Source: Saccharopolyspora montiporae
GTDB lineage: Bacteria; Actinomycetota; Actinomycetes; Mycobacteriales; Pseudonocardiaceae
Assembly (NCBI RefSeq): GCF_015209505.1
Contig: NZ_JADEYC010000004.1
Coordinates: 1 to 64,000, forward strand
Length of the DNA stretch: 64,000 bases
Reading direction: 5' to 3'
Position numbers and translations under genes: made by a program. How positions within the stretch are numbered: position 1 is the stretch's first letter; each line of letters begins with the position of its first letter. Of the stretch, positions 3,567 to 32,175 are shown one piece after another. A model generated the notes under the pieces. That model saw nothing but the letters and a program-made list of their open reading frames with translations. It was not told the origin of the DNA and ran no database searches.

Positions 3567-3597
3567 GGTTCCGGGCGGGCGCGTTCCGCCCGGGACC
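3567..3597 (+). terminator. Hairpin after the acyl-CoA dehydrogenase
   Basis: GGTTCCGGGCGG (3567-3578) can pair with CCGCCCGGGACC (3586-3597) around a 7-nt loop with one G-T pair. It begins 9 nt after the stop codon. There is no U tract, which is common for actinobacterial terminators. Confidence 0.6.
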
Positions 3598-3682
3598 GGT
3601 GTTCACCCGCTCGCGATCTCGGCGGGCCTCGGCGCCCCGGTAAGCTCGGTCCGGTCGTCGAACACCGAGTCCGGGAGCTCGC

Positions 3683-3835: not shown

Positions 3836-4212
3836 CCCTGCTGCGCGCGGAATGCCCGGCATGCCGCGCGCCCGCTGCGCCGGTGGTCGTACCGCTCGGC
3901 GCCTTCCCGCTTCCCGGCGCCGCCGCGATCCTGCCGGCGCCGGGGGCGGAAGCACGAATTCCGCGCATTCCGCCCGGCCCGTCCGGCTCGGCGAATGGTG
4001 TGCCGCGAATCCGGATCGCCCGGAATCCGCGGCTGCGCGAAGAATCCCACCTGCCGCCCGTTCGGGGCCCGGAAAAGCCCACCGGTGCGCGCGGATCCTT
4101 CCCACGGGAACGGATTCTGCGCCCATCCGGGAAGAATCAACGCAATTCCGGTGAAATCGGGCACAACATTTTCACTCGAATGGGTGTAATCCGAATGGGT
4201 GGAAAAGAACGC
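3836..4212. other. Gene-free stretch between the small basic protein and the epimerase
   Basis: It opens with a hairpin, GCGCGCGG-A-ATGCC-C-GGCAT-G-CCGCGCGC (3843-3871), which probably terminates the preceding gene. The remainder becomes steadily more AT-rich toward 4200. No reading frame with convincing codon bias was seen on either strand. Confidence 0.6.
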
Positions 4213-4225
4213 TAGGGTCGGCCCC
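4177..4225 (+). promoter_or_regulatory. Leaderless promoter with a 10-bp direct repeat
   Basis: The -10 hexamer TAGGGT (4213-4218) ends 7 nt before the GTG at 4226, so transcription probably starts at or near that codon. CGAATGGGTG occurs twice, at 4177-4186 and 4192-4201, spaced 15 bp apart, and the second copy covers the -35 position. The repeat could be an operator or an activator site. Neither role is proven. Confidence 0.5.
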
Positions 4226-5188
4226 GTGCCAACCAGCTCCGCCGCCTCCGCCGAGAACTCCCCCCGCGTCGTCGTCACCGGTGGATCCGGATTCGTCGGC
4301 CGCGCCGTCGTCCGCGCGCTCACCGCACGCGGGACCCCCGTCACCGTCGTCGACCTGCAGCCGCTGCCGGACGAGCTGCGCAGTGGGCTCGTGGAGCATG
4401 TCCAGGGCGATCTGCGCGAACCCGCCGTGCGGTCGGCCGCCGTGCCCGACGGCTGCGCCGGGATCGTGCACCTGGCCGCGATCACCTCGGTGCTGCGCTC
4501 GATCGAGCACCCCGCGCAGACGCACGAGGCGAACGTGGCGGTGACCCAGGAACTGCTCGAACTGTGCCGGGCGCGCGGCTGCGGTCGGATCGTGCTGGCC
4601 TCCACCAACGCCGTGGTCGGCGACATCGGGCACGCGCGCATCACCGAAGACCTGCCGCTGCGGCCGCTGACGCCCTACGGCGCCACCAAGGCCGCCTGCG
4701 AGATGCTGCTGTCCGGCTACGCCGGGTCCTACGGGATCGCCGCCGCCGCGCTGCGGTTCACCAACATCTACGGCCCGGGCATGGCGCACAAGGACAGCTT
4801 CGTGCCCCGCCTGATGCGCGCGGCCGCGGCCGGGACCGGCGTGCAGGTGTACGGGGACGGGCGGCAGCGGCGCGATTTCGTGCACGTCGACGACGTGGTC
4901 CGGGGTATCCTCGCCGCCTTCGATGGCGACTACAGCGGCACCGCGATCATCGGTGCCGGTGAATCGTTCTCCGTGCTGGAGCTCGTCGACGCGGTGCGCG
5001 CGGCGACCGGCCGCGAGATCCCGCTGGACCACGTGCCCGCCAAGAACGGCGAGATGCCCGCGGTGATCGTGGAGATCGAGCGGGCGCGGCACGACCTCGG
5101 CTACCGGCCCTCCACCGGGCTGACCGACGGGCTGCGCACGGTGTGGGAGGACTTCCGGCGGACCGACGAGCTGTCCGAAGTGTCATGA
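4226..5188 (+). CDS. NAD-dependent sugar-nucleotide epimerase/dehydratase
   Basis: 320 aa, extended short-chain dehydrogenase fold. The NAD-binding motif TGGSGFVG is at residues ~19-26 and the catalytic YGATK pair near residue 152. The sequence resembles UDP-glucose 4-epimerase-type enzymes (GalE/WbpP). The GTG at 4226 is preferred over an upstream in-frame codon because a TAGGGT -10 element ends 7 nt before it. Its stop overlaps the start of the next gene by 4 nt (ATGA), so epimerase and membrane glycosyltransferase are translationally coupled. It likely makes the activated sugar used by the following glycosyltransferases. The exact sugar is unknown. Confidence 0.87.
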   Translation: MPTSSAASAENSPRVVVTGGSGFVGRAVVRALTARGTPVTVVDLQPLPDELRSGLVEHVQGDLREPAVRSAAVPDGCAGIVHLAAITSVLRSIEHPAQTHEANVAVTQELLELCRARGCGRIVLASTNAVVGDIGHARITEDLPLRPLTPYGATKAACEMLLSGYAGSYGIAAAALRFTNIYGPGMAHKDSFVPRLMRAAAAGTGVQVYGDGRQRRDFVHVDDVVRGILAAFDGDYSGTAIIGAGESFSVLELVDAVRAATGREIPLDHVPAKNGEMPAVIVEIERARHDLGYRPSTGLTDGLRTVWEDFRRTDELSEVS

Positions 5189-6615
5189 TCCGGGGCGTCC
5201 GGACCGGCTCGGTGCCCGGTTTCCTGCGGCGGCACTGGCTGCTGGTGCTGCTGCTGGTGGCGGGACTGGCGCTGCGCGTGGTGGTACAGCTGGCATACCG
5301 CCCGGCGCTGCTCTACATCGATTCGTTCCGCTACCTGGCGGACCTGGGGGTCTTCTACCCTGGCGGGATCAACCCGATCGGCTACGGGGCCTTCCTGCTG
5401 CCGTTGCTGACCATCGGCGACCTGGCGTTCGTCGCCGCCGTGCAGCACCTGCTGGGCCTCGGCCTGGGCGTGTGGATCTACGCGCTGCTGCGCAGGCACG
5501 GCGCGCCGAACTGGCTGGCGGCGCTGGCCGCTGCCCCGGTGTTGCTGGACGCCTACCAGCTGCAGATCGAGCACAACATCATGTCCGATCTGCTCTTCCA
5601 GGCCGTGCTGCTGGGCGCGGTGCACCTGCTGACCCGCGCTCGCCCGGGCCCGCGCACCGCCGCGCTCGCGGGTGTGCTGCTGGGCTGCGCCGTGCTGGTG
5701 CGGCTGGTCGGGGTCACCCTCGTGCTGCCCGCCGCGGTGTTCGTGCTGCTGGCCGCCGGATGCCGGCCCGCGGACGGCTGGCGCCGCCGGATCCGCTCGG
5801 CGGGAGCGCTGGTGGCCGGATTCGCCGTGCTGCTGGGCGGTTACGCGGTCTACAACCTCGCCTGGACCGGGGTGCCCGCGCTGAGCGGCTCCACCGGCAG
5901 CGTCGTGTACGGGCGCACCGCGGTGGTGGCCGACTGCCCGGCGCTGGACCTCACGCCCGCCGAAGAACTGGTGTGCCCGGACGAACCGGTCGCGCAGCGC
6001 GAGCTGACCGGGATCGACCACTACATCCACTTCTACGCCGTGCAGCACCGCGTCGCCGAGGAGCTGCCGGAGGGCACCGATCTCGGCTCGGTGCAGGGAT
6101 CGTTCGCGCGGAAAGTCCTGCTGCACCAGCCCGACGACGTGCTCGCCGGTGTGCTCACCGACTTCCTGAAGGGCTTCGCGCCCACCCGGACGCAGGCCCC
6201 GGGCGACGTTCCGCTGCACCGCTGGCAGTTCCAGACCGAGTATCCGCTGCACGCCGAGCAGTGGTACGTGGCCGAGTGGGCCGAGCTGCACGACGGCGGA
6301 ACCGTGCACGCCGATCCCGAGCTGGCCGGATTCCTGCGCGCCTACCAGCTCGGCGGCGGCTACACCCCCGGCACGCTGCTGGGGCTCGCGTTCGTCCCCG
6401 CCGCGCTGGCCGTGCTCGGGGTGGGGCGGGCCCGGCGTTCCGGACTGCGCGCGATCTGCCTGCTGCCCGCCGGTCTCGCGGTCGCCGTGCTGGGAACCGC
6501 TGCCGCCATGGAGTTCTCCTGGCGCTACCAATTGCCCGGCCTCGTGCTGCTGCCCGTGGCAGCGGCGCTGGGCTTGACCGCACTGTTCGGCCCGCGCACC
6601 GGGAACGAGCGATGA
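5185..6615 (+). CDS. Polytopic membrane glycosyltransferase-like protein
   Basis: 476 aa. About 9-11 hydrophobic segments run through the protein, starting at WLLVLLLVAGLALRVVV (~residues 16-32). The early loop IDSFRYL carries an acidic residue in the place where GT-C enzymes (ArnT/PMT-like) hold their catalytic Asp, and the large extracytoplasmic loop is at about residues 240-390. The family transfers sugars from polyprenyl-phosphate donors outside the membrane. It overlaps the epimerase stop and the following GT2 start by 4 nt each, so the three form one translationally coupled operon. Acceptor unknown. Confidence 0.72.
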   Translation: MIRGVRTGSVPGFLRRHWLLVLLLVAGLALRVVVQLAYRPALLYIDSFRYLADLGVFYPGGINPIGYGAFLLPLLTIGDLAFVAAVQHLLGLGLGVWIYALLRRHGAPNWLAALAAAPVLLDAYQLQIEHNIMSDLLFQAVLLGAVHLLTRARPGPRTAALAGVLLGCAVLVRLVGVTLVLPAAVFVLLAAGCRPADGWRRRIRSAGALVAGFAVLLGGYAVYNLAWTGVPALSGSTGSVVYGRTAVVADCPALDLTPAEELVCPDEPVAQRELTGIDHYIHFYAVQHRVAEELPEGTDLGSVQGSFARKVLLHQPDDVLAGVLTDFLKGFAPTRTQAPGDVPLHRWQFQTEYPLHAEQWYVAEWAELHDGGTVHADPELAGFLRAYQLGGGYTPGTLLGLAFVPAALAVLGVGRARRSGLRAICLLPAGLAVAVLGTAAAMEFSWRYQLPGLVLLPVAAALGLTALFGPRTGNER

Positions 6616-7484
6616 CCGCGACACGGCCGGGCGCCTCGGCCCGGAACACGACCGAGACCCCAGGAGCTCCGATGCTGCAGCCCTTCCCGGACACCGTCGA
6701 CGCCGCCGCGTTGGCCGAGTTCGCCCGGTGCCACGCCCCGGACCGGTTCGCGCCGGTCGTCGTGCTCATCGCGGCCTACGACGAGCAGGACGCGATCGGC
6801 GGGGTGCTCGCCGCGATCCCGGACCGCTGCTGCGGGCTGCCGGTCGAAGTGCTGGTGGTGGTGGACGGCGCCACCGACGCGACCGCGCGCGTGGCCCGCG
6901 AGCACGGGGCCCGCACCTGCGAGGTGCCGGTCAACCGAGGGCAGGGTGCGGCGCTGCGGCTGGGCTACCATCTCGCCGAGCAGCGCGGTGCGCAGTACGT
7001 GGTGACCACCGATGCCGACGGGCAGTACGACCCGGCCGAGCTCGACCTGCTGCTGCGCCCGCTGCTGGACGATCGGGCCGATTTCACGACGGGTTCGCGC
7101 ACGTTGGGCAGCAGCGAGCGGCCCGCCCTGCTGCGCAGGATCGGTACCCGGGTGTTCGCCACCGCCGTCAGCGCGCTGACCGGTAGGCGCGTCACCGACA
7201 CCTCGTTCGGCTTCCGCGCGATGCGCGCACAGGTCCCGGTTTCGGTGGCGCTGCGCCAGCAGCAGTACCAGTCGGCCGAACTGCTCGTGGGTGTGCTCAG
7301 CCGCGGCTATCGGGTCCACGAGGTGCCGATGCGGATGCTGGCCCGCACGGCCGGCAGCAGCAAGAAGGGCAACGACCTGGTCTACGGCTACCGCTACGCG
7401 AAGGTCGTGCTCGGCACCTGGTGGCGGGAGCGCCGGTCGGGCCCACCGGAGGTCAGCAAGGGGGTGGTGGGCGATCGCGGGTGA
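6612..7484 (+). CDS. Glycosyltransferase family 2, polyprenyl-phosphate mannosyl/glucosyltransferase type
   Basis: 290 aa. The GT-A fold is clear: VVVLIAAYDEQDAIGGVL (~residues 45-62), VLVVVDGATDAT, the donor-metal motif TDADGQYDP, and the acceptor region TDTSFGFRAM. It resembles DPM1/ArnC-type synthases that load a sugar onto a polyprenyl phosphate. It lacks C-terminal membrane helices, so a GtrA-type partner fits: one lies convergent just downstream. The ATG at 6612 overlaps the previous stop; a second ATG at 6672 (MLQPF) is possible. Together with the preceding membrane transferase it suggests lipid-linked sugar made inside and transferred outside the cell. Confidence 0.88.
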   Translation: MTATRPGASARNTTETPGAPMLQPFPDTVDAAALAEFARCHAPDRFAPVVVLIAAYDEQDAIGGVLAAIPDRCCGLPVEVLVVVDGATDATARVAREHGARTCEVPVNRGQGAALRLGYHLAEQRGAQYVVTTDADGQYDPAELDLLLRPLLDDRADFTTGSRTLGSSERPALLRRIGTRVFATAVSALTGRRVTDTSFGFRAMRAQVPVSVALRQQQYQSAELLVGVLSRGYRVHEVPMRMLARTAGSSKKGNDLVYGYRYAKVVLGTWWRERRSGPPEVSKGVVGDRG

Positions 7485-7950
7485 ACACCAGCCGGTCGAT
7501 GAGGAAGAACTTCAGCACGAACATCGCGGCGTAGGTACCGGCGAACGCCGCCCACACCACGGCCACCTGAGCCGACCGCTCGTCCGGGAACGCGCTGTGC
7601 GCCAGGCCTTCGGCCAGGTGCGTCGCCGCCGCGGCCAGCAGGGCGGTGAGCACCGAGATCGTGCCGTAGCGCAGCAGTTGTCCGCGCAGCCCGACCCTGC
7701 CGCGGTTCCCCCAGGTGCGCCGGTTGAGCGCGAAGTTGGGCACGGCGCCGGCCAGCCACGCGGCGACGGTGGCGACCACCGGCGCGGCACCGAGCGAGTA
7801 GCTGAGCAGGAACACGACCTGGCTGATGGCGGTGGCCACGACGGAGGCCGCGGCGAACCGGGACAGCAGGTGCCAGTACGGGCGCGGTCGGCCCGCGTGC
7901 TCGGCGCCGGTGTCTCGGGTGGCGTGCTGCACGGTCTCCTCCAGGTTCAT
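7453..7950 (-). CDS. GtrA-like membrane protein
   Basis: 165 aa from the ATG at 7950. Four hydrophobic helices lie at about residues 28-50, 52-72, 90-110 and 125-145, with the NFALNRRTWGNRG loop typical of GtrA proteins. GtrA proteins are thought to flip or assist polyprenyl-phosphate sugars across the membrane. Its 3' end overlaps the 3' end of the convergent GT2 gene by 32 bp. A longer form starting at a TTG (8031) is possible, but its extra N-terminus is Arg/Gly-rich and unlike the family. Confidence 0.82.
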   Translation of the reverse strand: MNLEETVQHATRDTGAEHAGRPRPYWHLLSRFAAASVVATAISQVVFLLSYSLGAAPVVATVAAWLAGAVPNFALNRRTWGNRGRVGLRGQLLRYGTISVLTALLAAAATHLAEGLAHSAFPDERSAQVAVVWAAFAGTYAAMFVLKFFLIDRLVFTRDRPPPPC

Positions 7951-8136
7951 CGTCCGCGGTCCGGTACCGGAAGGCTGCCGTCCGCGGCGGCCGCGGTCAT
8001 GTCGTCCCGTGGCAAAGGGGACACTTCGCAACCAGCGGAAGGAATGAGAACATGCCGAATGTTATATCCATCGGGTGAAGCCGTTCCTACTGGCTTGACT
8101 TAGCGGATTCTGGGTTTCGGCGTCCGGCACTCCTGA

Positions 8137-9351
<1,215 letters not shown>

Positions 9352-18484: not shown

Positions 18485-19945
18485 GTGCAGGAGTTCGACC
18501 TTCTCGTCGTCGGCGGTGGCCCCGGCGGGTACGTGGCGGCCATCCGGGCCGCGCAGCGCGGTCTCTCGGTCGGCGTCGTGGAGAAGGAGAAGGCGGGCGG
18601 CGTCTGCCTGAACTGGGGCTGCATCCCCACCAAGGCGATGCTGCGTTCGGCAGAGGTCTACGAAACCGTCCTGCACGCCGCCGATTTCGGCATCAACGTC
18701 GAGGGCGTCAGCGTCGACTACGACGCCATCACCCGGCGCAAGGACGGCGTGGTCAAGGGCCTCACCGACGGCGTCGCCGGTCTGCTCAAGACCAACGGCG
18801 TCACGCTCATCGACGGGCACGCCCGGTTCACCGGGGCGACCACCGCCGACGTCTACGCCACGGGTGAATCCCCGATCGGCGCCGGCGGCCCCCGCTACGC
18901 CGCCGAACCGGAAGGCGCGCAGCCGATCGAGCAGGTCAGCGCGCGCGACGTCATCATCGCCACCGGTTCGGTGCCGGTCCAGCTGCCGCTGCCCGGCGCG
19001 GACCTGCCGGGCGTGATCACCTCCGACGGCGCGTTCGGGCTCACCGAGATCCCGAAGCGCATCGCCGTCATCGGCGGCAGCGCGGTGGGCGCCGAGTGGG
19101 CGAGCCTGTTCAACACGCTCGGCAGCGAGGTCTCCATCATCGAGATGCAGTCGAGCCTGGTACCGGCCGAGGACGCCGAAATCGGCAAGGCGCTGGGCCG
19201 CTCGTTCGGCAAGGCCGGCATCAACGTCGTCACCGGCGCCTCGGTCACCGGCATCGAGCAGACCTCGACCGGGCTGCAGGTCGGCTTGGACGGCGCCGGG
19301 TCCGGGCCGATCGAGGCCGATGTGGTGCTGGTCGGCGTGGGGCGCAAGCCGAACACCGCGCAGCTGGACCTGGACGAGGCAGGCGTGCGCACCGACGAGC
19401 GCGGGTTCGTCCAGGTCGATGCCCAGCTGCGCACGAATGTCGAGCACGTGCACGCCATCGGCGATGTCACCGGCAAGGCGCTGCTCGCGCACGTGGCTTC
19501 GCACCAGGGCGTCGTCGCGGCCGAGACGATCGCCGGCCACTCCGCGCACATCGACTACGGCGTGATCCCCGCGGCCACCTTCACCCACCCCGAGGTCGCC
19601 AGCGTCGGGCTCACCGAGGCGCAGGCGAAGGAAGCCGGGCACGAGATCGTGGTCGGCAAGATGCCGTTCGCCGCGCTGGGCCGCGCGAAGTCCTACGGCG
19701 ACACCGACGGCTTCATGAAGATCGTGGCCGGTGCCCAGCACGGCGAGGTGCTCGGCGTGCACGTCATCGGTCCGTCGGCCAGCGACCTGATCACCGAAGG
19801 TGCGCTGGCCATGACGCTGGAGGCCACGCTCGACGAGCTGGCCGACACCATCCACGCGCACCCCACCCTCGGGGAGATCGGCATGGAGGGCGCCATGGTC
19901 GCGCTCGGCCTGCCGATCCACGTGGCCCCGCCGAAGAAGCGCTGA
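18485..19945 (+). CDS. lpdA: Dihydrolipoyl dehydrogenase (E3)
   Basis: 486 aa. FAD motif GGGPGGYVAA at ~residues 10-19; redox pair C41/C46 in GGVCLNWGCIPTK; NAD motif VIGGSAVGAEWASL; C-terminal dimerisation domain with the HAHPTLGE His-Glu pair. It reoxidises dihydrolipoamide of E2 with NAD. AAGGAG at 18470-18475 precedes the GTG. It leads the order E3-E1alpha-E1beta-E2. Between residues 125 and 140 there is a short insertion rich in Gly/Pro (TGESPIGAGGPRYAAEPEG) not typical of all LpdA proteins. Confidence 0.95.
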   Translation: MQEFDLLVVGGGPGGYVAAIRAAQRGLSVGVVEKEKAGGVCLNWGCIPTKAMLRSAEVYETVLHAADFGINVEGVSVDYDAITRRKDGVVKGLTDGVAGLLKTNGVTLIDGHARFTGATTADVYATGESPIGAGGPRYAAEPEGAQPIEQVSARDVIIATGSVPVQLPLPGADLPGVITSDGAFGLTEIPKRIAVIGGSAVGAEWASLFNTLGSEVSIIEMQSSLVPAEDAEIGKALGRSFGKAGINVVTGASVTGIEQTSTGLQVGLDGAGSGPIEADVVLVGVGRKPNTAQLDLDEAGVRTDERGFVQVDAQLRTNVEHVHAIGDVTGKALLAHVASHQGVVAAETIAGHSAHIDYGVIPAATFTHPEVASVGLTEAQAKEAGHEIVVGKMPFAALGRAKSYGDTDGFMKIVAGAQHGEVLGVHVIGPSASDLITEGALAMTLEATLDELADTIHAHPTLGEIGMEGAMVALGLPIHVAPPKKR

Positions 19946-19978
19946 CACCCGAGTTCCGTCGTTCGAAAGGGGATCGTG

Positions 19979-21103
19979 ATGGCGCCGCAGACTGCCACCC
20001 GCAGCAAAGCGTCTTCCCGCAGCACCAGCACCAAGGCGCGCCGCTCCACGAGCGCGGCGCGCAGCGCGGGCCACGGCCGGTTCTCCGGGGAATCCCCGGA
20101 GAAGCTCCGCGACCACTTCCGCGAGATGACCCTGATCCGCCGCTTCGAGGAGCGCGCCGCGCAGGGCTACACGCAGGCCAAGATCGGCGGGTACTGCCAC
20201 CTCAACCTCGGTGAGGAGGCCACGGTCGTCGGGCTGATGCACGCGTTGCGCACGAGCGACCTGCTGTTCACCAACTACCGCGAGCACGGCTACGCCATCG
20301 CCAAGGGCATCGAGCCGGGCCGCGTGATGGCCGAGCTGTACGGGCGCACCACCGGCACCTCCAAGGGCTGGGGCGGCTCGATGCACATGTTCGACGTCGA
20401 GAACGGGCTGCTCGGCGGGTACGGCATCGTCGGCGGGCAGATCCCGCTGGCCACCGGTGCGGCGATGGCCATCGACTACCGCGGTGGCGACGAGGTCGTC
20501 ATGTGCCAGATGGGCGATGGCACCACCAACATCGGCGCGTTCCACGAGGCGCTCAACATCGCGGCGCTGTGGAACCTGCCGGTCGTGTTCGTCGTGGTGA
20601 ACAACCAGCTCGGCATGGGCACCACCGTCGAGCGCTCCTCGGCCGAATCCGAGCTGCACAAGCGCGCTTCCGCGTACCGGATGCACGGTGAGCGGGTGGA
20701 CGGCAACGATGTGCTCGCCGTGCGCGAGGCGGCCGACCGGCTGGTCGAGCGGGCCCGCAGCGGCGGGGGGCCGGCGCTGCTGGAGACGGTCAGCGACCGG
20801 CTCAAGGGCCACTCCGTGGTCGACCCGGGCAAGTACCGCAGCGACGAGTCCGCGCAGGCGGCGCGGCAGAACGACCCGGTCGTGGCACTGCGCGCGGAGC
20901 TGATCGAGGCCGGGATCCTGGACGAGGACGCGGCGGCCGACATCGAGACGAAGGCCCAGGCCGACGCCGACGCCGCGGTCGCCTTCGCCGATGACAGCCC
21001 GCACCCCGACCCGGCGACGCTGTTCGACCACACCTACGCCACTCCCGTGGCCAACGATTCCCGGCGCCTGCCCGCCGATCCGGTTTTCCCATCATCGTTC
21101 TGA
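19979..21103 (+). CDS. pdhA: Pyruvate dehydrogenase E1 component, alpha subunit
   Basis: 374 aa. The thiamine pyrophosphate motif GDGTTNIGAFHEALNIAAL is intact near residue 180. HLNLGEEATVVGL and FTNYREHGYAIAKG are typical of E1alpha. The first ~30 residues form an Ser/Thr/Arg/Lys-rich tail. It decarboxylates pyruvate or a related 2-oxoacid together with E1beta. AAAGGGGA (19967-19974) favours the ATG at 19979 over the GTG just before it. It follows lpdA by 33 nt. The heterotetrameric E1 (alpha plus beta) differs from the AceE-type homodimer of many actinobacteria, so a second PDH may exist elsewhere. Confidence 0.93.
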   Translation: MAPQTATRSKASSRSTSTKARRSTSAARSAGHGRFSGESPEKLRDHFREMTLIRRFEERAAQGYTQAKIGGYCHLNLGEEATVVGLMHALRTSDLLFTNYREHGYAIAKGIEPGRVMAELYGRTTGTSKGWGGSMHMFDVENGLLGGYGIVGGQIPLATGAAMAIDYRGGDEVVMCQMGDGTTNIGAFHEALNIAALWNLPVVFVVVNNQLGMGTTVERSSAESELHKRASAYRMHGERVDGNDVLAVREAADRLVERARSGGGPALLETVSDRLKGHSVVDPGKYRSDESAQAARQNDPVVALRAELIEAGILDEDAAADIETKAQADADAAVAFADDSPHPDPATLFDHTYATPVANDSRRLPADPVFPSSF

Positions 21104-21158
21104 CGAACGGCGCCAGCCGCGTTCGAAACAGCCGCTGAGCGACACCCCGCCACAAGTG

Positions 21159-21196
21159 CCGCGCCCCCTCCCGGTCCGTTCGGGAGGGGCGCGCGG
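21159..21196 (+). promoter_or_regulatory. Strong hairpin between E1alpha and E1beta genes
   Basis: The left arm CGCGCCCCCTCCCG (21160-21173) can pair with CGGGAGGGGCGCG (21181-21193), one C being bulged, around the loop GTCCGTT. There is no T-run. It ends 9 nt before the ribosome binding site of pdhB. It may adjust mRNA stability or subunit ratio, or be a weak internal terminator. Confidence 0.55.
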
Positions 21197-21217
21197 TCCC
21201 GTCCAGGAGAAACCCCC

Positions 21218-22210
21218 TTGGCCGTCATCACCTACCGCCAAGCGCTGCACGACACGCTGCGCGAGGAAATGCACCGCGATGAGGACGTCTTCCTCATCGG
21301 CGAGGAAATCGGAGTCTTCGAAGGCTCCTACAAGATCACCGCCGGGATGCTGGAGGAGTTCGGCGAGAAGCGCGTGCGTGACACGCCGATCGCCGAGGAA
21401 GGCTTCGTCGGTGCCGCGGTCGGCGCGGCCATGCTGGGCCTGCGCCCGGTCGTGGAACTGATGACGATCAACTTCTCGCTGATCGCCCTGGACCAGATCG
21501 TCAACCACGCGGCCAAGATCTACGGCATGTTCGGCGGCCAGACCAGCGTGCCGATGGTGCTGCGCACCCCGGGCGGCGGCGGGCAGCAGCTCGGCGCCAC
21601 GCATTCGCAGAACATCGAGCTCTACTACGCCTTCGTGCCGGGCCTCAAGGTCGTCGCGCCGAGCACGCCCGCCGACGCCCGGGCGCTGCTGAAGGCGTCC
21701 ATCGCCGACGACGACCCGGTGCTGTTCCTGGAGAACCTCGCGCTGTACAACACCAAGGGCGAGGTGCCCGACGAGCCGGAGCCCGCCGAGATCGGCAAGG
21801 CCAAGGTGACCCGCGAGGGCTCGGACATCACGATCATCGGCTATTCGCGGATGGCGATGGTGGCCGGGCAGGTCGCCGAGCAGCTGGAGTCCGAAGGCAT
21901 CAGTGCCGAGGTCGTCGACCTGCGCAGCCTGCGCCCGCTGGACCGGGAGACCGTGGTCGAGTCGGTGCGCAAGACCGGCTGCGCGGTGGTGGCCGAGGAC
22001 GACTGGCTCACCTACGGCATCGGCGCGGAGATCGCCGCGTCGATCTCGGACGGCGCTTTCGACCACCTGGACGCACCGGTGCGCCGGGTCGCGTCCGCGG
22101 AGGTCCCGCTGCCGTACGCCAAGCCGCTGGAGCGGGCCGCCCTGCCGTCCGCGGAGTCGCTGACCACCGCGGTGCACGAGACTCTCGACGCCGTCGGCCA
22201 CCGCCGCTGA
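21218..22210 (+). CDS. pdhB: Pyruvate dehydrogenase E1 component, beta subunit
   Basis: 330 aa, usual for E1beta. Clear blocks: VFLIGEEIGVFEGSYKIT, DTPIAEEGFVGAAVGAAM, FGGQTSVPMVLRTPGG and the C-terminal SLRPLDRETVVESV. It begins with TTG at 21218, supported by AGGAGA at 21205-21210. With E1alpha it forms the TPP-dependent heterotetramer. A GC-rich hairpin lies in the 114-nt gap after E1alpha, so the ratio of the two subunits may be tuned post-transcriptionally. Confidence 0.93.
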   Translation: MAVITYRQALHDTLREEMHRDEDVFLIGEEIGVFEGSYKITAGMLEEFGEKRVRDTPIAEEGFVGAAVGAAMLGLRPVVELMTINFSLIALDQIVNHAAKIYGMFGGQTSVPMVLRTPGGGGQQLGATHSQNIELYYAFVPGLKVVAPSTPADARALLKASIADDDPVLFLENLALYNTKGEVPDEPEPAEIGKAKVTREGSDITIIGYSRMAMVAGQVAEQLESEGISAEVVDLRSLRPLDRETVVESVRKTGCAVVAEDDWLTYGIGAEIAASISDGAFDHLDAPVRRVASAEVPLPYAKPLERAALPSAESLTTAVHETLDAVGHRR

Positions 22211-22238
22211 GTTCGACCGCGTTCAAGCGAGGAAGACG

Positions 22239-23540
22239 ATGACTGAGATTCAGATGCCGAGGCTCTCCGACACGATGGAGGAGGGCGTCATCGCGACCTG
22301 GCACAAGCAGGTCGGCGACACGGTCGAGCGCGGCGACGTCGTGGCCGAGATCGAGACCGACAAGGCCATCATGGAACTGGAGGCCTTCGACGCGGGCGTG
22401 CTGGAGAAGATCCTGCTCGCCGAGGGTGCGACGGTGCCGATCGGAACGCCGATCGCGGTGCTGGGCGACGGGTCGGGTGCCGCGGCCGAATCCGCCGAAG
22501 CCCCCGCGGCGGCGCCCGCCGAAGCCCCCGCGGCCGAGCCGGTCGCGGAGGGTCCCGCCGCGGAGAGCGCGGCCGAACCGGTGGCCGCATCCGCGGAGCC
22601 CGCCGCTGGGCGCGGTGTCAAGCCGAAGGCGTCGCCGCTGGCCAAGCGGGTCGCCAAGGAGCAGGGCGTGGATCTGGCCCAGGTGCGCGGCACCGGACCC
22701 GGCGGGCGCATCATCCGGGTGGACATCGAGGCCGCGGCGCAGCAGGCCGGTTCCGCATCCTCGGCCCCCGCCCCGCAGGACGCGGGAGCACCGGCTCCCG
22801 CACAGCCCGCCCCGTCCCAGGCTGCGGGGTCCCAGAGCGCAGCCGATCCGGACGTCGAGGAGATCCCGCTCGGCACCATCCGGAAGGTGACCGCCAAGCG
22901 GCTCACCGAGAGCAAGCAGCAGGCCCCGCACTTCTACCTCACCAGCGCGATCGACGTGACCGACCTGGTGGCGTTCCGGGCCGAGCTCAACCAGCGGCTG
23001 CAGGCCGCCGACGGGCCGAAGGTCAGCCTCAACGACCTCGTGGTCAAGGCCGTGGCCACGGCGCTGCGCGCGAACCCGTCGGTCAACGTCTCCTTCGGCG
23101 GGGACACGTTGCTGCAGCACAAGCGGATCCACCTCGGAGTGGCGGTGGCGATCGAGGGCGGTCTGGTGGTGCCGGTCATCACCGACACCGACCGCAAGAG
23201 CGTCTCGGAGATCGCTGCGGAAGGCCGTGAGCTGGCGGGACGCGCGCGGGACGGCAAGCTCAAGGCCGACGAGATGAGCGGTGGCACCTTCACCATCTCC
23301 AACCTCGGCATGTTCGGCGTGGAGCAGTTCTCCGCGGTGATCAACCCGCCGGAAGCCGGCATCCTGGCCGTCGGTGCGGTCGACGACGAGGTGAAGGTGC
23401 GCGAGGGTGAGTTCGTCGCGCGCAAGATCATGCGGGTGACGCTGTCCGCCGACCACCGCGCGGTGGACGGCGCGGTCGGCGCGGCCTTCCTGCAGCAGTT
23501 GACCGGTCTGCTGGAGGACCCGCTGCGCATCATCGCCTGA
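22239..23540 (+). CDS. pdhC: Dihydrolipoamide acetyltransferase (E2), single lipoyl domain
   Basis: 433 aa. One lipoyl domain with the modified lysine K42 in IETDKAIMELEAF. Ala/Pro/Glu-rich linkers flank a peripheral subunit-binding domain, SPLAKRVAKEQGVDLAQVRG, at ~residues 130-160. The C-terminal acyltransferase has DHRAVDG with its catalytic His at 406. It transfers the acyl group from lipoamide to CoA and forms the core of the complex. It begins 28 nt after pdhB and is followed by a terminator. Acyl substrate could be pyruvate or branched 2-oxoacids; the sequence alone does not settle this. Confidence 0.93.
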   Translation: MTEIQMPRLSDTMEEGVIATWHKQVGDTVERGDVVAEIETDKAIMELEAFDAGVLEKILLAEGATVPIGTPIAVLGDGSGAAAESAEAPAAAPAEAPAAEPVAEGPAAESAAEPVAASAEPAAGRGVKPKASPLAKRVAKEQGVDLAQVRGTGPGGRIIRVDIEAAAQQAGSASSAPAPQDAGAPAPAQPAPSQAAGSQSAADPDVEEIPLGTIRKVTAKRLTESKQQAPHFYLTSAIDVTDLVAFRAELNQRLQAADGPKVSLNDLVVKAVATALRANPSVNVSFGGDTLLQHKRIHLGVAVAIEGGLVVPVITDTDRKSVSEIAAEGRELAGRARDGKLKADEMSGGTFTISNLGMFGVEQFSAVINPPEAGILAVGAVDDEVKVREGEFVARKIMRVTLSADHRAVDGAVGAAFLQQLTGLLEDPLRIIA

Positions 23541-25451: not shown

Positions 25452-26153
25452 GTGCCCGGGTTCTTCCGGGTTGGGGGTGTCCGGTTGTCTTTTCGCGCGC
25501 GCAGCGGCGCGATCGCGGTCGTGGGTGCGGTCGCGTTCGTCGGGATCGCAGGCTGTTCCGGGTGGCCGCCACCACCGGCGTCGGAGCAGGAGAAGGAGAC
25601 GGTGACCGTCCAGCAGCCGCCGCCCCAGCCGCAGGGGGCGGAGGAGGGCGGCGGCGAGTCCGCCGAGCCCGGAGCCGGTTCGGGGGAGGAGTCGGGATCC
25701 GCGGAGGACTCCGGTGCCTCCGAATCGCGGGAGCCGGAAGCGGAGGACGCGATGGCGTGCGCCGCGGACGAGCTGCAGGCGAGCTTGGAGCCGGACAACA
25801 ACCGCGAGGCGTCCGGGTCGCGCACCATGCTCCGGGTGACCAACGTGGGCGGGCGGATGTGCCAGCTGCGCGGCTACGGCGGCATCCAGTTCCTGGACTA
25901 CGAGGGGAATCCGGTGGATACCGCGCTCAACCGCACGGAGTTCAACCCGCCGACGATCACTTTGCAGCAGAGCCAGAGCGCGGGCATGGACCTGACCTGG
26001 GACATCTACCAGGAGCCGTGCGTCGAACCGGAGACGCTGCAGTACACGCCGCCCGGCGATGACGAATCGGCGCAGGCCGTGTGGGGTCTGGGCGCCGTGT
26101 GCCGCGGCGGTCTGGTCGACGCGACCGCCCTCCGCAACATCTGGGGAGGCTGA
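25452..26153 (+). CDS. DUF4232 lipoprotein
   Basis: 233 aa. A signal peptide ends in the lipobox VGIAGC (Cys ~35). A low-complexity Pro/Glu/Gly/Ser linker runs to ~residue 95. The C-terminal DUF4232 domain contains MLRVTNVGGRMCQLRGYGGI and the Cys residues expected for disulfides. DUF4232 proteins are exported, with unknown role. GTG 25452 gives the longest form; TTG 25485, preceded by GGGGG, is an alternative that still leaves a full signal peptide. It lies 29 nt before the amidase-lectin gene on the same strand, so the two may be cotranscribed. Confidence 0.82.
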   Translation: MPGFFRVGGVRLSFRARSGAIAVVGAVAFVGIAGCSGWPPPPASEQEKETVTVQQPPPQPQGAEEGGGESAEPGAGSGEESGSAEDSGASESREPEAEDAMACAADELQASLEPDNNREASGSRTMLRVTNVGGRMCQLRGYGGIQFLDYEGNPVDTALNRTEFNPPTITLQQSQSAGMDLTWDIYQEPCVEPETLQYTPPGDDESAQAVWGLGAVCRGGLVDATALRNIWGG

Positions 26154-26182
26154 AACGACGTGCGAATTCGGGGAGGTCGAGA

Positions 26183-28801
26183 ATGACGCAGCCGCTCGTC
26201 TGGCTGGTCGACGTTCTGCGCGGGGCCGGGCTGAACGTGCACGAAACCGAGGGTTGGCGGGAGCGCGCGGCTGACGGTCAGCCTCCGGAACCGATCGGTG
26301 TCCTCCAGCACCACACGGCGTCATCCAGCACACCGGACGATCCGGTACCCGCCATCGGGACGTGCGTGGACGGTCGTTCGGGTTTGCCCGGGCCGCTGTG
26401 CCAGGCGCTCATCGGCCTCGACGGTTCGATCCACTTGATCGCGGCGGGGCGGGCGAACCACGCGGGTGAGGTCAAGGAATCCGGGCCGCTTCCGGCTGCC
26501 GGGAGCGGGAACGGGATGTACATCGGCTTCGAGTGGGACTACCAGGGCGTAGACCAGCACCCGTCGCCGCACCAGTACGACGCCGCCGTGCGCGCCACGG
26601 CCGCGGTGCTCAGGCACCTCGGGAAGCCGCCGGAGCACACCCGGGGGCACAAGGAGACGTCCACGACGGGGAAGGTCGATCCCGGGCACGTGGACTTGGA
26701 CCGCTTCCGCGCGGATGTCGGTTCGGCGATGGCCCCGCCTCCGCCGAAACCACCCCAGGAGCCGCCGGGTCCGCCACCGCAGCAGCCCGGCCCGCCCCCG
26801 GGGCCGCCACCGGTGCCCGATTCGCCGCCACCGCGGGGCGGCGATCCCGGACCGCCCGACCCGGCTGTCATGCGGGTGGTCTTCCTGGTCGGCAAGCATA
26901 TGAACGTGTCCGACTACCTGATGCTCGCCGCGTTCGAGGCCGGGTTGGTCGAATCCCAGATGTCGAACCTGAACTGGGGTCACAGCTCGTCGCTCGGAGT
27001 TTTCCAGCAGCGGCCGGAGTGGTGGGGCACACCGGAGCAGCTGGTGGACGTGCGCTATGCGGCGACCAAGTTCTTCGAAGCGGCGTTGGAGAAGGAACGG
27101 GAGAACAACCGCCGCAGTGCCGGTGAACTCGCCCAGGACGTGCAGGATTCCGCGCACCCGGGGCGTTACGACCAGCGGGAGCAGGAAGCTCGGCGGTTGA
27201 TCGACGAGACGGCGAAGGCGGTGCACCCACCGGCGCCGCCGCCCGGGCAAGGACAGCCGCCGGGTCCACCGCCGGGGCAAGGTCAGCCACCTGGGCCGCC
27301 ACCGGGAGGGCAGCAACCACCGCCGGGTCCACCGCCGGCGCAAGGTCAGCCACCTGGGCCGCCACCGGGAGGGCCGCAACCACCGCCGGGTCCACCGCCG
27401 GGGCAAGGGCAGCCACCTGGGCCGCCACCGGGAGGGCAGCCACCACCGCCGGGTCCACCGCCGGGGCAAGGTCCGCCACCTGGGCCGCCACCGGGAGGGC
27501 AGCCACCACCGCCGGGTCCACCGCCGGGGCAAGGTCAGCCACCTGGGCCGCCACCGGGAGGGCAGCAACCACCGCCGGGTCCACCACCGGGGCAAGGTCA
27601 GCCACCGAATCACGGTCGGCCTCCGAGCCCGCCGCCAGGGCAAGGTCAACCGCCGGGCCCACCGCCCGGCCAGGGGCAACGACCCGCTCCCGGTCGCCCG
27701 CCCGGCCAGGCCCCGACACCCGGTCCGCCTCCGGGCCAGGGCCAGCAGCCGCCCGGACAGGGCCGGCCGCCCGCGCCGGAGCCGCCGCCTCCGCCGGAGC
27801 CGGTGCGGCCCACCGTGTTCGGCTCACCGGTCATTCCCGGCGCCGACGGCGCGCTCTCGGCGTTCGGCAGCAGCACCATCGGCGAGGTCGTCACCGCGTG
27901 GCAGGTCGCACCGGATGCCGACTGGGTCGGTTGGCTGGGTCTCGGCGGAGAACCCGCGGGCAAGCCGGTCGTGGTCCGCGAGCCCGATGGTGCGTTGTCG
28001 TTGTTCGTGCGGGACACCGAGGACCGGATCGCCACCGCCTCCCGCCCGCGGGACGGCGCCAAGTGGGGAGAGTGGAAACCGTTGGGCGGCACCGTCGCCG
28101 AGGATCCGGTCGTGGTGGTCCGGCCGGACGGTGCGCTGGCCCTGTTCGCGGTGAGCCGGGACGGGAAGCTGGTCACCACGGCGCAGGCCGGCCGGGACGG
28201 GGACTGGACCGAGTGGGACGACCTCGGTGGTGACCTCGCGGGGCGGCCCGCGGTCGCGCTGCGCCCGGACGGCACCGCGTCGGTATTCGCCCGGAACGCG
28301 GACGGCGAGATCGCCGTCACCGAGCAGGGCACCGCCGGTGCCGGGTGGTCCCCGTGGCAGGGACTGGGCGGCAGCATGTCCGCCGACCCGGCGGTGACCA
28401 CGCTGCCGGACGGCACGATCGCGCTGTTCGCGGTCGGCAACGACGAGCAGCTCTACGTGATGTCCCACCCGGGACAGGGCGGGCAGTGGACCGGGCTCGG
28501 CGGTGATGTCGCCGGGACGCCCGCGCTCGCGCTCGGTCGGGAGGGGCGGATCACGGCGCTCGTCCGCACGGAGGGCGGTGCGCTGCGCGCCACTGAGCAG
28601 CAGGTCGCGCACGCCGGGTGGTCGGCGTGGTCGGACCTCGGCGGTGAACTGGCCGGGGATCCGATCGTGGTGAGCCGCGCGAACGGGGCTTGCACGGTGT
28701 TCGGCGTCGCGGAGGACGGCGACATGGTCGTGCTGGAGCAGGACGAACCCGACGGCCAGTGGGGATCGTGGCGCGAGCTGGTCGATTCACTCAAGGCATG
28801 A
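26183..28801 (+). CDS. Modular amidase / lysozyme-like / beta-propeller lectin protein
   Basis: 872 aa. Residues ~1-175: amidase of the PGRP/Amidase_2 type, with the zinc-ligand region LQHHTASSS, GFEWDYQG, and RGHKETSTTGKVDPGHVDL. A Pro-rich linker follows. Residues ~235-320: a lysozyme-like domain common in actinobacterial wall hydrolases, LMLAAFEAGLVESQMSNLNW then SSSLGVFQQRPEWWGTPEQL. Residues ~350-545: Pro/Gly/Gln repeats. Residues ~550-872: seven ~48-residue repeats of the tectonin/PLL-lectin kind (pattern PDGALALFAVSRDGKL...W). No signal peptide is visible, as in phage endolysins. ATG 26183 is preceded by GGGGAGGT. It probably cuts peptidoglycan after binding wall sugars. Target and export route unknown. 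Confidence 0.8.
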   Translation: MTQPLVWLVDVLRGAGLNVHETEGWRERAADGQPPEPIGVLQHHTASSSTPDDPVPAIGTCVDGRSGLPGPLCQALIGLDGSIHLIAAGRANHAGEVKESGPLPAAGSGNGMYIGFEWDYQGVDQHPSPHQYDAAVRATAAVLRHLGKPPEHTRGHKETSTTGKVDPGHVDLDRFRADVGSAMAPPPPKPPQEPPGPPPQQPGPPPGPPPVPDSPPPRGGDPGPPDPAVMRVVFLVGKHMNVSDYLMLAAFEAGLVESQMSNLNWGHSSSLGVFQQRPEWWGTPEQLVDVRYAATKFFEAALEKERENNRRSAGELAQDVQDSAHPGRYDQREQEARRLIDETAKAVHPPAPPPGQGQPPGPPPGQGQPPGPPPGGQQPPPGPPPAQGQPPGPPPGGPQPPPGPPPGQGQPPGPPPGGQPPPPGPPPGQGPPPGPPPGGQPPPPGPPPGQGQPPGPPPGGQQPPPGPPPGQGQPPNHGRPPSPPPGQGQPPGPPPGQGQRPAPGRPPGQAPTPGPPPGQGQQPPGQGRPPAPEPPPPPEPVRPTVFGSPVIPGADGALSAFGSSTIGEVVTAWQVAPDADWVGWLGLGGEPAGKPVVVREPDGALSLFVRDTEDRIATASRPRDGAKWGEWKPLGGTVAEDPVVVVRPDGALALFAVSRDGKLVTTAQAGRDGDWTEWDDLGGDLAGRPAVALRPDGTASVFARNADGEIAVTEQGTAGAGWSPWQGLGGSMSADPAVTTLPDGTIALFAVGNDEQLYVMSHPGQGGQWTGLGGDVAGTPALALGREGRITALVRTEGGALRATEQQVAHAGWSAWSDLGGELAGDPIVVSRANGACTVFGVAEDGDMVVLEQDEPDGQWGSWRELVDSLKA
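27242..27660 (+). repeat. In-frame 63-bp tandem repeat encoding a Pro/Gly linker
   Basis: About six imperfect copies of a 63-bp unit coding for 21 residues of the pattern GPPPGQGQPPGPPPGGQQPP. Units differ by silent changes and by Q/P swaps. All lengths are multiples of three, so copy-number change would only lengthen or shorten the linker between the wall-lytic domains and the propeller. Confidence 0.85.
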
Positions 28802-29347: not shown

Positions 29348-29473
29348 AAGAGCGTGATAGCTTGATCGAATGATCTTGGGGTCGGCTTCTTGCGTCCCGC
29401 GGGGCTACTGCGGCAAGACCGCGCTGCTGGCGTATGACGCGGCAGGATGCGGGGATGACGGGAGGCGATGGGC

Positions 29474-30343
29474 ATGACGGACACTCCGATGAGTCCCACG
29501 GTGTGGCGCCGTTGGTTGGCATTCGAGCTGACCAGGCTTCGCCGCGTTGCGGGTCTGGAGCAGAAGGACGTGGCCAAAGCGCTGCGGTGCACCGTGACGA
29601 AGGTGTCCTACATCGAGAACGCGGAACGCCCGGTCGTGCTGCGAGATCTCGATGAAGTGCTGCTGGGGCTGTATGGGGTGCCGGAGGATCGCTGGTCGTC
29701 CTACCTGCAAGCCGCGAAAAAATCCCGACAGAAGGGCTGGTGGGAGCGTTATAGCGCTGACGCGCTGCCCGAGTGGCTGTCGCTGTACATCGGTTTGGAG
29801 CAGGGCGCGGAACAGTTGCGGGTTTACGACGCCCAGCTCATCACCGGGGTCTTGCAGACCGAGGACTACGCCCAGGCGATCGTCCGGCGTGGGACGGCTG
29901 AGCTGACCGAGGAGCAGATTTCCCGCCGCGTCGAGTTCCGCAGCTCACGCCGCGCAGTGCTGACGCGGGAACTCGATCCGCTTCGACTGTGGGTTGTCCT
30001 GGACGAGGCAGTGCTGCGGCGAGTGGTCGGCAACCGGGCCGTCATGCGCGATCAGCTTCAGCACCTCGCCGACGTCGCTGATCAGGCCAAGGTCACGTTG
30101 CAGGTTTTCCCGTTCGAGCACGGGGCGCATCCCGGCATGCAGGGGCCGTTCACAATCTTGGACTTCCCGTGGCCGACTGATCCCGGTGTGGTTTACATCG
30201 AGCACCGCTCCGGCGCCGTCTACTTGGAGACTCCTGCCGAGATTAAGGATCACACCGTTGCTTTTGAGCATCTGTGCGCCCATGCTCTTCCCCCGGACGA
30301 ATCGGTCGCACTGATCCGTGACATCGCAAGGGAGTATCAGTGA
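29474..30343 (+). CDS. XRE-family regulator with DUF5753 domain
   Basis: 289 aa. Helix-turn-helix at ~residues 12-65 (LTRLRRVAGLEQKDVAKALR, then VTKVSYIENAERP). The C-terminal DUF5753 domain includes YDAQLITGVLQTEDYAQAI and the acidic VLDEAVLRRVVG. This type is paired with DUF397 proteins across filamentous actinomycetes, where such pairs affect development and antibiotic output. ATG 29474 is chosen since GGGAGG ends 8 nt before it; an upstream ATG at 29468 is too close. Its stop overlaps the DUF397 start by 4 nt (GTGA). Confidence 0.92.
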   Translation: MTDTPMSPTVWRRWLAFELTRLRRVAGLEQKDVAKALRCTVTKVSYIENAERPVVLRDLDEVLLGLYGVPEDRWSSYLQAAKKSRQKGWWERYSADALPEWLSLYIGLEQGAEQLRVYDAQLITGVLQTEDYAQAIVRRGTAELTEEQISRRVEFRSSRRAVLTRELDPLRLWVVLDEAVLRRVVGNRAVMRDQLQHLADVADQAKVTLQVFPFEHGAHPGMQGPFTILDFPWPTDPGVVYIEHRSGAVYLETPAEIKDHTVAFEHLCAHALPPDESVALIRDIAREYQ

Positions 30344-30582
30344 CCAACTTTCCGCAGTCGCACGTCACCGCGGGTGAGCTGGACAACGCCACGTGGCGGA
30401 AGTCCAGCTTCAGCAACGATCAGGGTCAATGCGTCGAGGTCGCTCCGTTGGCGGATGGTTCGATCGCGGTGCGCAACAGCAACCGCCCCGACGCCGGGGT
30501 CGTGCTGTTCACCGGTGCTGAGATGGCGGCGTGGATCGAGGGCTGTCGGGCCGGCGAGTTCGACGACCTCGCCGGAGCGTGA
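30340..30582 (+). CDS. DUF397 protein
   Basis: 80 aa. Diagnostic motifs: WRKSSFSNDQGQCVEVAPL and VRNSNRPDAGVVLFTGAEMA. DUF397 proteins are small partners, or targets, of adjacent XRE-DUF5753 regulators; some act as toxin-like or antagonist components. The GTG start overlaps the XRE stop, so translation is coupled. The following gene is convergent. Confidence 0.93.
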   Translation: MTNFPQSHVTAGELDNATWRKSSFSNDQGQCVEVAPLADGSIAVRNSNRPDAGVVLFTGAEMAAWIEGCRAGEFDDLAGA

Positions 30583-31119: not shown

Positions 31120-32133
31120 TCAGCGGGCGGCTTCGACGAGCTTCGGGGTCAGCCGGTCGAGCACGAACGGGATGCTGGAGACGGTCGCCGAGCCCAGCGC
31201 CATGGTCAGGTCGTAGTCGTCCAGCAGCACCAGCGAGCCGCGGCGGGCGGCGGGCAGGTTCATCAGCAGCTCGTCGTTGCGGACGGCTTCCACGTCGGTC
31301 GGCTGCGCGGTGGTCACCACGACCACGTCGGCGTCCAGCAGCCCGACCTGCTCCTTGCTGATCTTGACGTTGAACTTGCCCTCGTCATCGAGGTCGGCGA
31401 TCGAGGGGGACAGCCGCATGCCCAGCTGCTCCAGCAGCACGGTCCGCGCGTCCTTCTTGCTGTACGCGGCGTAGGTGCCTGCCGAGTCGGTGCGCACCAC
31501 GACGTGCGTCTTGCCGTCCAGCTGCGGGCTCTCCCGGCGGGTGCGGTCGATCTTGCCCTGGGTGTCGGCGATGAGTCGCTCGGCCTCGGCCCGCTTGCCC
31601 ACGGCGCGGCCGATCGTCTCGGCCTGCACCCGCCAGTCCACGCCGTAGTCGATGGATTCCGGCGGCTGCGCGACGACGGGGCCGAAGCTCTCCAGCCGGT
31701 TGTACTGCTCCTGGGTCAGTGCGCTCTGCACCGCGGTGACCACGTCCGGAGCCAGCGCGATGATGCTCTCCACGTTGACTTCGGTGCCGAGCACCTCCGG
31801 GCGCTGCCCGTCGAGCCGCCGCTGCGCCCACGGGCCGACACCGCTGCTCCACGGGCCCCACTTGGTCAGCCCGGCCGGGATGATGCCCAGGGCCAGCAGC
31901 ACGTCGTGGTCGGTGATGCCGAGGCTGACGACGCGCTCGGGAGCGCGGTCGATCTCCGCGGTGCCGAACCGGTTCGGGACGCTGACCGGGAATCCGGGAC
32001 CGGAGGGCCCGTCCGGGCCCGCGCCCTGCCCGCCGCCGGAGCACGCCGCCAGGCCTGCCGCGATCAGTCCGGTGGCACCGGCCAGGAAGCTCCGGCGGCC
32101 GAGCCGGGAGCCAGCTGCTGGAAGAAGATCCAT
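31120..32133 (-). CDS. Iron-siderophore ABC transporter substrate-binding lipoprotein
   Basis: 337 aa. The signal is of Tat lipoprotein type: GRRSFLAGATGLIAAGLAAC with lipobox Cys at 31. The mature protein is a periplasmic-binding-protein domain of the FepB/FecB kind: RVVSLGITDHDVLLALGIIP, then LAPDVVTAV. It captures ferric siderophore for an ABC importer. A ribosome binding site, AAGGA, precedes the ATG at 32133. An IdeR/DmdR-type box at 32176-32194 indicates repression when iron is sufficient. The permease and ATPase genes are not in the window, so the importer is encoded elsewhere. Confidence 0.92.
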   Translation of the reverse strand: MDLLPAAGSRLGRRSFLAGATGLIAAGLAACSGGGQGAGPDGPSGPGFPVSVPNRFGTAEIDRAPERVVSLGITDHDVLLALGIIPAGLTKWGPWSSGVGPWAQRRLDGQRPEVLGTEVNVESIIALAPDVVTAVQSALTQEQYNRLESFGPVVAQPPESIDYGVDWRVQAETIGRAVGKRAEAERLIADTQGKIDRTRRESPQLDGKTHVVVRTDSAGTYAAYSKKDARTVLLEQLGMRLSPSIADLDDEGKFNVKISKEQVGLLDADVVVVTTAQPTDVEAVRNDELLMNLPAARRGSLVLLDDYDLTMALGSATVSSIPFVLDRLTPKLVEAAR

Positions 32134-32175
32134 CACCGCATCCTTCTGTTCCGGGTCGGGCGAGGCCCCGAGTGC

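Follow-up and report, generated by a model that had tools for sequence, protein, structure and literature searches.

A three-domain lysin of Saccharopolyspora whose catalytic half changes together with an adjacent DUF4232 lipoprotein at a fixed chromosomal site

We analyzed a 64,000-nucleotide stretch of Saccharopolyspora montiporae DNA (positions 1 to 64,000 of contig NZ_JADEYC010000004.1, assembly GCF_015209505.1; here called the window) that carries the gene for a three-domain lysin and, directly upstream, a gene for a DUF4232 lipoprotein. An original prediction had read the lysin as an amidase, a lysozyme-like domain, and a lectin propeller joined by Pro-rich linkers, and had proposed that it might be an antibacterial effector with the lipoprotein as an immunity-like partner. 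Comparison of related loci adds three findings to that prediction: by sequence, the lysin occupies a fixed chromosomal site, its catalytic half is exchanged between loci, and the type of the lipoprotein changes with the catalytic half.

RESULTS

Exchange of the catalytic half

The N-terminal domain (N-domain) of the lysins is of two unrelated kinds (18 to 23% identity), each joined to a GH184-type domain and a lectin. An amidase is present at three loci (G000, G003, and G011), and a peptidase-like domain is present at five (G005, G006, G013, G016, and G034). In G011 and G006, the lectins are 96% identical and the flanking FecB-like proteins are 95% identical, whereas the N-domains share 19% identity. 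Likewise, G003 and G005 differ in N-domain kind, with lectins 91% and FecB-like proteins 92% identical. On the lectin tree, the N-domain "warhead" must have changed at least three times, and grouping the amidases as one clade is rejected (approximately unbiased test, P = 7e-55). The FecB tree, which contains seven genomes and no starred branch, also rejects such a clade (P = 0.003). For the amidase tree itself, the branch to the phage outgroup is very long and the root is unsafe.

The DNA of G011 and G006 was then compared across the locus. Homology runs to the end of the N-terminal region of the lipoprotein and stops just before its DUF4232 domain. None was reported across the DUF4232 domain and the N-domain of the lysin, a 206-column patch of 70% identity lies in the GH184 domain, and homology resumes just before the propeller, at 93% onward. 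Because homology breaks at these points, the unit exchanged between the two genomes consists of the DUF4232 domain, the N-domain, and the GH184 domain. Judged by sequence, the lysins have the constant carrier and exchangeable part of polymorphic toxins, with the exchangeable part at the N terminus; described polymorphic toxin domains are C-terminal (PMC3482391).

Pairing of lipoprotein type with the catalytic half

The lipoprotein gene of the window ends 29 nt 5' of the lysin gene. Its product has a lipobox-like IAGC with Cys35, read by eye, and belongs to the first of two types, A and B, which are 23 to 33% identical to each other. The lipoprotein nearest to the lysin is type A at 3/3 amidase loci and type B at 5/5 peptidase loci. 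Among the eight loci, identity between the adjacent lipoproteins tracks that of the N-domain (r = 0.91; Mantel P = 0.0006) and of the GH184 domain (r = 0.76); the corresponding value for the lectin is r = 0.03 (P = 0.40). The lipoprotein domain is exchanged with the catalytic half, independently of lectin and species, which lends indirect support to the proposed effector and immunity-like partner.

Intact type A genes occur in 4 of the 22 Saccharopolyspora genomes, always at the lysin locus. Further intact lipoprotein genes were found in G003 (two B copies), G005 (one A copy), and G034 (a third kind), and G016 has a type A copy that is broken; the copy count at G011 is a lower bound, as its contig begins close upstream. 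The regions of 12 genomes that lack the lysin gave no tblastn match (E ≤ 1e-6) to any of lipoproteins A, B, and C (12/12).

Purifying selection acts on every pair compared. The ratio of nonsynonymous to synonymous substitution rates (dN/dS) for type A is 0.03 to 0.04 between close species and 0.20 for G000-G003, and that for type B is 0.14 to 0.15. Constraint also holds for the additional lipoprotein genes in the G003/G005 pair, at 0.04 for A and 0.15 for B. Values for the lysin parts are 0.05 to 0.14 (amidase), 0.06 (GH184), 0.10 to 0.17 (peptidase), and 0.11 to 0.28 (lectin), next to 0.14 to 0.15 for the flanking genes.

A fixed chromosomal site

Of 14 genome contigs related to the window, 13 bear the name Saccharopolyspora, and those nearest to it are from S. 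ipomoeae (77%) and S. dendranthemae (79%, in the best segments). The lysin is found at one site in 7/22 Saccharopolyspora genomes. Its neighbors in the window are the lpd/E1/E2 operon, an acyl-CoA dehydrogenase gene, a helix-turn-helix (HTH)/DUF397 pair, and the FecB-like gene. The lpd-E1-E2 genes are seen at six of the seven lysin loci of the genus; the exception, G011, is at the edge of a contig. In G034, which belongs to another genus, the lysin adjoins the same operon. The site was compared in the 19 genomes with a FecB match at E ≤ 1e-80; G007, G014, and G019 had none and were left out. Twelve lysin-less genomes keep the flanks, with lpd-E1-E2 on the 3' side of FecB in 12/12, and no intact lysin was found in these 12 regions. 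The site in G002 (L168, 1115-1542) holds a short lectin piece and an inverted peptidase piece and is otherwise empty.

No tail genes were seen around the lysin locus. The surroundings consist of housekeeping-type genes at a conserved site, in agreement with the earlier statement that no phage genes are nearby. A prophage remnant or the endolysin of a resident prophage was therefore rejected, since the locus is not in a lysis or tail cassette.

Between the lysin and FecB, the window contains an HTH_31/DUF5753 regulator gene followed by a DUF397 gene (29468-30582), a pair that is common in actinomycetes. In G013 (L102, about 3000 to 9250), approximately 6 kb separates the lysin from FecB, more than at the other lysin loci of the genus; by eye, the intervening genes encode an Lrp-like regulator, a dehydrogenase, a permease, and an aminotransferase.

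Domain architecture of the lysin

Searches against Pfam, PHROG, and PDB together with model searches bear out the predicted three-domain layout with Pro-rich linkers (Table 1). The gene starts with an ATG at 26183 that is preceded by a good ribosome-binding site. Proline accounts for 23/39 residues of linker 1 and 101/195 of linker 2. The latter is about 2 to 5 times as long as that of the seven relatives (37 to 86 residues) and is made up of near-repeats such as PPGQGQPPGPPPGG.

Table 1. Positions of the lysin, its parts, and neighboring landmarks in the window
Feature	Position	Strand	Basis or remark
Genes lpd - E1alpha - E1beta - E2, pyruvate dehydrogenase type (names by eye), left landmark	18485..23540	+	Beside FecB in 12/12 lysin-less regions
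DUF4232 lipoprotein type A, candidate surface partner or immunity protein	25452..26153	+	Pfam DUF4232, 4.7e-16, residues 103-220
Shine-Dalgarno-like GGGGAGG	26170..26176	+	Sequence; 6 nt 5' of lysin ATG
Three-domain lysin	26183..28801	+	Open reading frame, domain and profile matches; 872 aa
Amidase_2 domain (N-acetylmuramoyl-L-alanine amidase), residues 1-183	26183..26731	+	Pfam, PHROG, PDB matches; H43, E117, H156, K164, D166
Pro-rich linker 1	26732..26848	+	Composition
GH184-type muramidase domain, residues 223-346	26849..27220	+	Profile search, AlphaFold model; Glu257 aligned with Glu41 of KsGH184
Pro/Gly/Gln-rich linker 2, about 195 aa	27221..27805	+	Composition
PLL-type beta-propeller (lectin fold)	27806..28798	+	PDB sequence matches
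FecB-like lipoprotein gene (name by eye), right landmark	31120..32136	-	Found in 19/22 genus genomes, E ≤ 1e-80

The N-domain of the window lysin matches Amidase_2 (PF01510) with 52.2 bits against a Pfam cut-off of 26 and the amidase of PDB entry 9hna at 1.8e-12. It also matches endolysin family phrog_880 at 1.6e-38, so the N terminus does look like a phage endolysin. In the sequence alignment, H43, H156, and D166 of the expected metal site, along with E117 and K164, are all present in register with 9hna, and the loss of zinc ligands that was to count against the prediction was not seen. We assume the metal-binding and catalytic roles of these residues from AmpD and T7 lysozyme. When the amidase and GH184 region was used in a tblastn search, matches were found in 1019/50,697 phage records, 163 of which cover at least 80% of the region. 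Identity stays below 60% in every one of the 1019 and is 35.7% in those ranked highest, and recent capture from a known phage was rejected on this ground.

Phage-type amidase relatives are present in 22/22 Saccharopolyspora genomes. In the genome of the window itself, a paralogue of 290 residues (L039, 8624-9496) is 70% identical to the amidase of the lysin. Such short forms usually have about 290 residues, and at the loci inspected their N termini carry no signal; in G015, the open frame is only 193 aa long. One flanking regulator gene is common to 18/18 short-form loci checked, and a small second gene is present in 17/18. By eye, we take the regulator to be PucR-like and the small gene to be DUF3263-like.

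The peptidase-like N-domain bears H..D..HxH motifs, read by eye, and we presume from these that it is an M15/VanY-like metallopeptidase. No Pfam or PDB match to it was found, and its one PHROG match is phrog_32486, of unknown function. Relatives occur in 63/390 genomes of the family and in 6/50,697 phage records; among 25 loci listed, many adjoin genes that look tail- or holin-like by eye.

No Pfam family was found for the middle domain. A profile built from the window and its seven relatives matches the solved GH184 muramidase cores 8b2h (2.8e-34) and 8b2e (9.5e-24). The AlphaFold model of the window domain (predicted local distance difference test score [pLDDT], 83.7) is likewise closest to these structures, with Z scores of 13.9 to 8b2h (root mean square deviation, 2.8 over 119) and 13.7 to 8b2e; the next fold group, which comprises lytic transglycosylases, goose-type lysozyme, and phage lysins, follows at a Z of about 7. 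Foldseek also ranks 8b2h and 8b2e first, but its E values for them are only 5e-3 to 6e-3, and no match reached 0.001. Window Glu257 aligns with the catalytic Glu41 of KsGH184, which was essential in a mutational study (PMC10394673), and this Glu is kept in 8/8 lysins. The position of KsGH184 Asp66, which superposes on a potentially ligand-stabilizing Gln of phi29 gp13 (PMC10394673), lines up with a gap/Ser stretch in the window protein and has no match there.

At least one match to the GH184-type domain was found in 120/120 family genomes sampled. At seven Pseudonocardiaceae loci (L052, L053, L054, L055, L057, L061, and L064), the domain is combined with VCBS-, PLL-, or other repeat C termini behind N termini that look signal-like by eye. 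A GH184-type domain with a signal-like N terminus is apparently a common secreted architecture in Pseudonocardiaceae. Because other GH184-type and PLL proteins of this family carry such N termini, it is the lysins, with an endolysin N-domain and no signal, that stand apart.

The propeller matches eight distinct PLL/PHL lectin sequences in the PDB (E values of 2e-42 to 2e-49), with 6rfz covering residues 17 to 337 of 339. Pfam gave just a subthreshold BNR_2 match. By analogy with the PLL/PHL family, the propeller would have seven blades. Close PLL relatives (1e-40) were found in 10/390 family genomes, and 8 of these are the lysins. The other two, in G191 and G195, have signal-like N termini by eye, and in G195 a glucosaminidase-like domain (name by eye) is joined to the propeller. 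In the class sample, PLL matches at 1e-35 were limited to 2/394 genomes, namely, the window's own and G631, in which the gene has a stop inside. At a looser 1e-10, some PLL-like match is present in 16/22 Saccharopolyspora genomes. No PLL relatives were found in the viral contigs searched.

Absence of a signal peptide

Within the first 60 residues of the window lysin, hydropathy over 12 residues peaks at 1.34, compared with 2.77 in the N-terminal hydrophobic segment of the type A lipoprotein and 2.49 in the signal-bearing relative L052. This value is 0.47 to 1.51 in the eight lysins, none of which has a signal-like hydrophobic N terminus by this hydropathy check, which is not a trained predictor. 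A missed signal peptide was rejected: the sole in-frame upstream extension, from a GTG at 26081, adds an arginine-rich stretch without a hydrophobic core. The predicted lack of a signal peptide accordingly holds for both the protein and its possible extension.

DISCUSSION

Lipoprotein and warhead types match in 8/8 loci and the expected catalytic residues are intact, and for these reasons we favor an antibacterial function. On this reading, to which we would give somewhat less than an even chance, the protein is an endolysin-derived antibacterial lysin that is released by lysis, and the lipoprotein provides immunity at the cell surface. Lacking a signal, the lysin would stay in the cytoplasm after synthesis and would be freed when part of the mycelium lyses. 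Its propeller would bind wall glycans of neighboring cells, and its catalytic domains would cleave two bonds in peptidoglycan. From its anchor on the outer face of the membrane, the lipoprotein would block the matching enzyme and thereby protect kin, and extra lipoproteins would protect against other cassette types. Such a system would work like the colicin M-type bacteriocins, as a wall-acting toxin with membrane-anchored immunity, with its polymorphic part at the N terminus.

Several observations weigh against this reading. The independent contrasts number three, and a sign test on so small a number does not reach significance (P = 0.25); as the two traits coincide in 8/8 loci, one label was used for both, and the count gives the number of contrasts and not a separate check of their agreement. 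Co-exchange of the adjacent lipoprotein and the warhead may be plain linkage. At the five peptidase loci taken alone, lipoprotein identity correlates better with the GH184 domain (r = 0.72) than with the peptidase (r = 0.46). The peptidase of these loci follows the lectin (r = 0.81), so that the data show exchange between the two classes but do not show it within one. Immunity genes spared at lysin-less sites might be expected, yet none was found in 12/12. Close species differ little in type A, which is strongly conserved and not diversifying. The structural model of the lipoprotein is poor (pLDDT, 41.1; three sequences). In the genome of the window, no DUF4232 gene lies beside the 290-residue amidase paralogue, so that such an amidase would not always need the lipoprotein. 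Finally, no release route for the lysin was found.

The lysin might instead act on the producer's own wall, as an autolysin in hyphal lysis, branching, or sporulation, with the lipoprotein as an outer-surface regulator or anchor specific for the catalytic half. The genus seems to use phage-type amidases, given their presence in every genome and the regulator shared by the short-form loci, and the purifying selection on both the lysin and the type A lipoprotein is in keeping with such a role. A lysin with a close lectin is nevertheless present in only 7 of the 22 genomes, with fragments in an eighth, and is hence dispensable; unrelated enzyme types swap at its locus; and it lacks a signal-like N terminus. 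We consider an own-wall enzyme unlikely, if still a serious contender. It is also rather improbable, in our judgment, that the lipoprotein has no functional link to the lysin and that homologous recombination between conserved flanking stretches simply carried both. The breakpoints do lie at homologous stretches, the independent contrasts are few, and DUF4232-like genes also occur elsewhere, with matches in 22/22 Saccharopolyspora genomes. What speaks against chance carriage is that the left break between G011 and G006 falls inside the lipoprotein gene, so that the signal region is kept and the DUF4232 domain is exchanged. Moreover, both lipoprotein types are present in G003 and in G005, yet in either genome it is the copy closest to the lysin that agrees with the warhead, and no such lipoprotein was found where the lysin is absent.

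Another conceivable route is loading by a phage-tail-like or other secretion machine (a tailocin, contractile injection system, or type VII system). The GH184-type domain matches the phage tape-measure family phrog_10030 at 1.9e-22, and tape-measure-related effectors are described for actinobacterial contractile systems (PMC13277306). However, the phage sheath PF04984 gave 0 matches in the genome of the window, which is 92.5% complete and was the sole genome searched for this purpose, while the control search found it in 3/14 genomes; the locus also has no tail genes in view. The tailocin-type enzyme that had been offered as one option is thus not supported in the form of a contractile tailocin, and we regard loading by any such machine as very improbable. 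Searches for a signal-like segment in the eight lysins and for the sheath gene revealed no export or delivery module, other machines lying outside these searches. Phage endolysins depend on a holin or on lysis for release. Because both warheads have phage or prophage-like relatives and resemble phage endolysins, we infer lysis of producer cells as the route that fits the antibacterial lysin.

Parts of this system have counterparts elsewhere. Actinophage LysA proteins such as the lysin A of Stubby (Bixzunavirus) also combine a middle-type and an Amidase_2-type domain in one protein. In Stubby, however, the domain order is reversed, there is no propeller, and the gene is part of a phage lysis cassette, with lysin B as its neighbor; the window lysin is encoded on a bacterial chromosome and has a lipoprotein gene beside its own. 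Catalytic domains of mycobacteriophage LysA are exchanged modularly, as seen here, and most N-terminal LysA regions were labeled predicted peptidases in that 2012 paper (PMC3314691). The fungal GH184 muramidases are similar to the window lysin in the sequence and fold of the catalytic domain, including the Glu257 equivalent of Glu41, but carry SH3-like wall-binding domains and the Asp66 that the window protein does not match (PMC10394673). The propeller resembles in sequence the seven-bladed PLL/PHL lectins of Photorhabdus; these are lectins of Gram-negative insect pathogens, whereas the window propeller, a predicted sugar binder, is fused to wall hydrolases.

Among toxins, the colicin M-type bacteriocins and bacteriocin 41 are likewise described as wall-acting, with polymorphic architecture and membrane-associated immunity partners (PMC5821083). 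Colicin M differs in acting on lipid II in Gram-negative bacteria (PMC5821083), and the likeness is one of description, made without sequence comparison. The Streptomyces umbrella toxins, the nearest actinomycete parallel that we found, share beta-propeller lectins, polymorphic toxin domains, and adjacent immunity genes; they form multiprotein particles with UmbC, in contrast to the single polypeptide with wall hydrolases described here (PMC11062931). Among the LXG toxins of type VII secretion, TelC (paired with TipC) also acts in the wall zone of Gram-positive cells, and these toxins have strings of extra immunity genes, but they use a known delivery machine, and none was identified for the window lysin (PMC6193138, PMC9484751). 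No paper on DUF4232 was found in a search that left most subscription journals outside, so this is not proof of absence, and no paper on this system was found by title or abstract start in the Saccharopolyspora amidase and endolysin literature. It is possible, although on balance we doubt it, that the locus represents an undescribed actinobacterial polymorphic lysin system, in which endolysin warheads on a constant lectin are exchanged as cassettes together with DUF4232 surface immunity lipoproteins.

The natural chimeras of an amidase or peptidase-like domain with GH184 and a lectin are material for studies of lysin targeting. If the pairing is real, these proteins would be a family of single-polypeptide, wall-digesting actinomycete bacteriocins with phage-endolysin warheads. 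Their layout would be inverted, with a variable N terminus, a constant C terminus, and the immunity gene upstream. The reading, if true, would also provide one or more DUF4232 subgroups with a testable function, and the extra lipoprotein genes would be orphan immunity genes.

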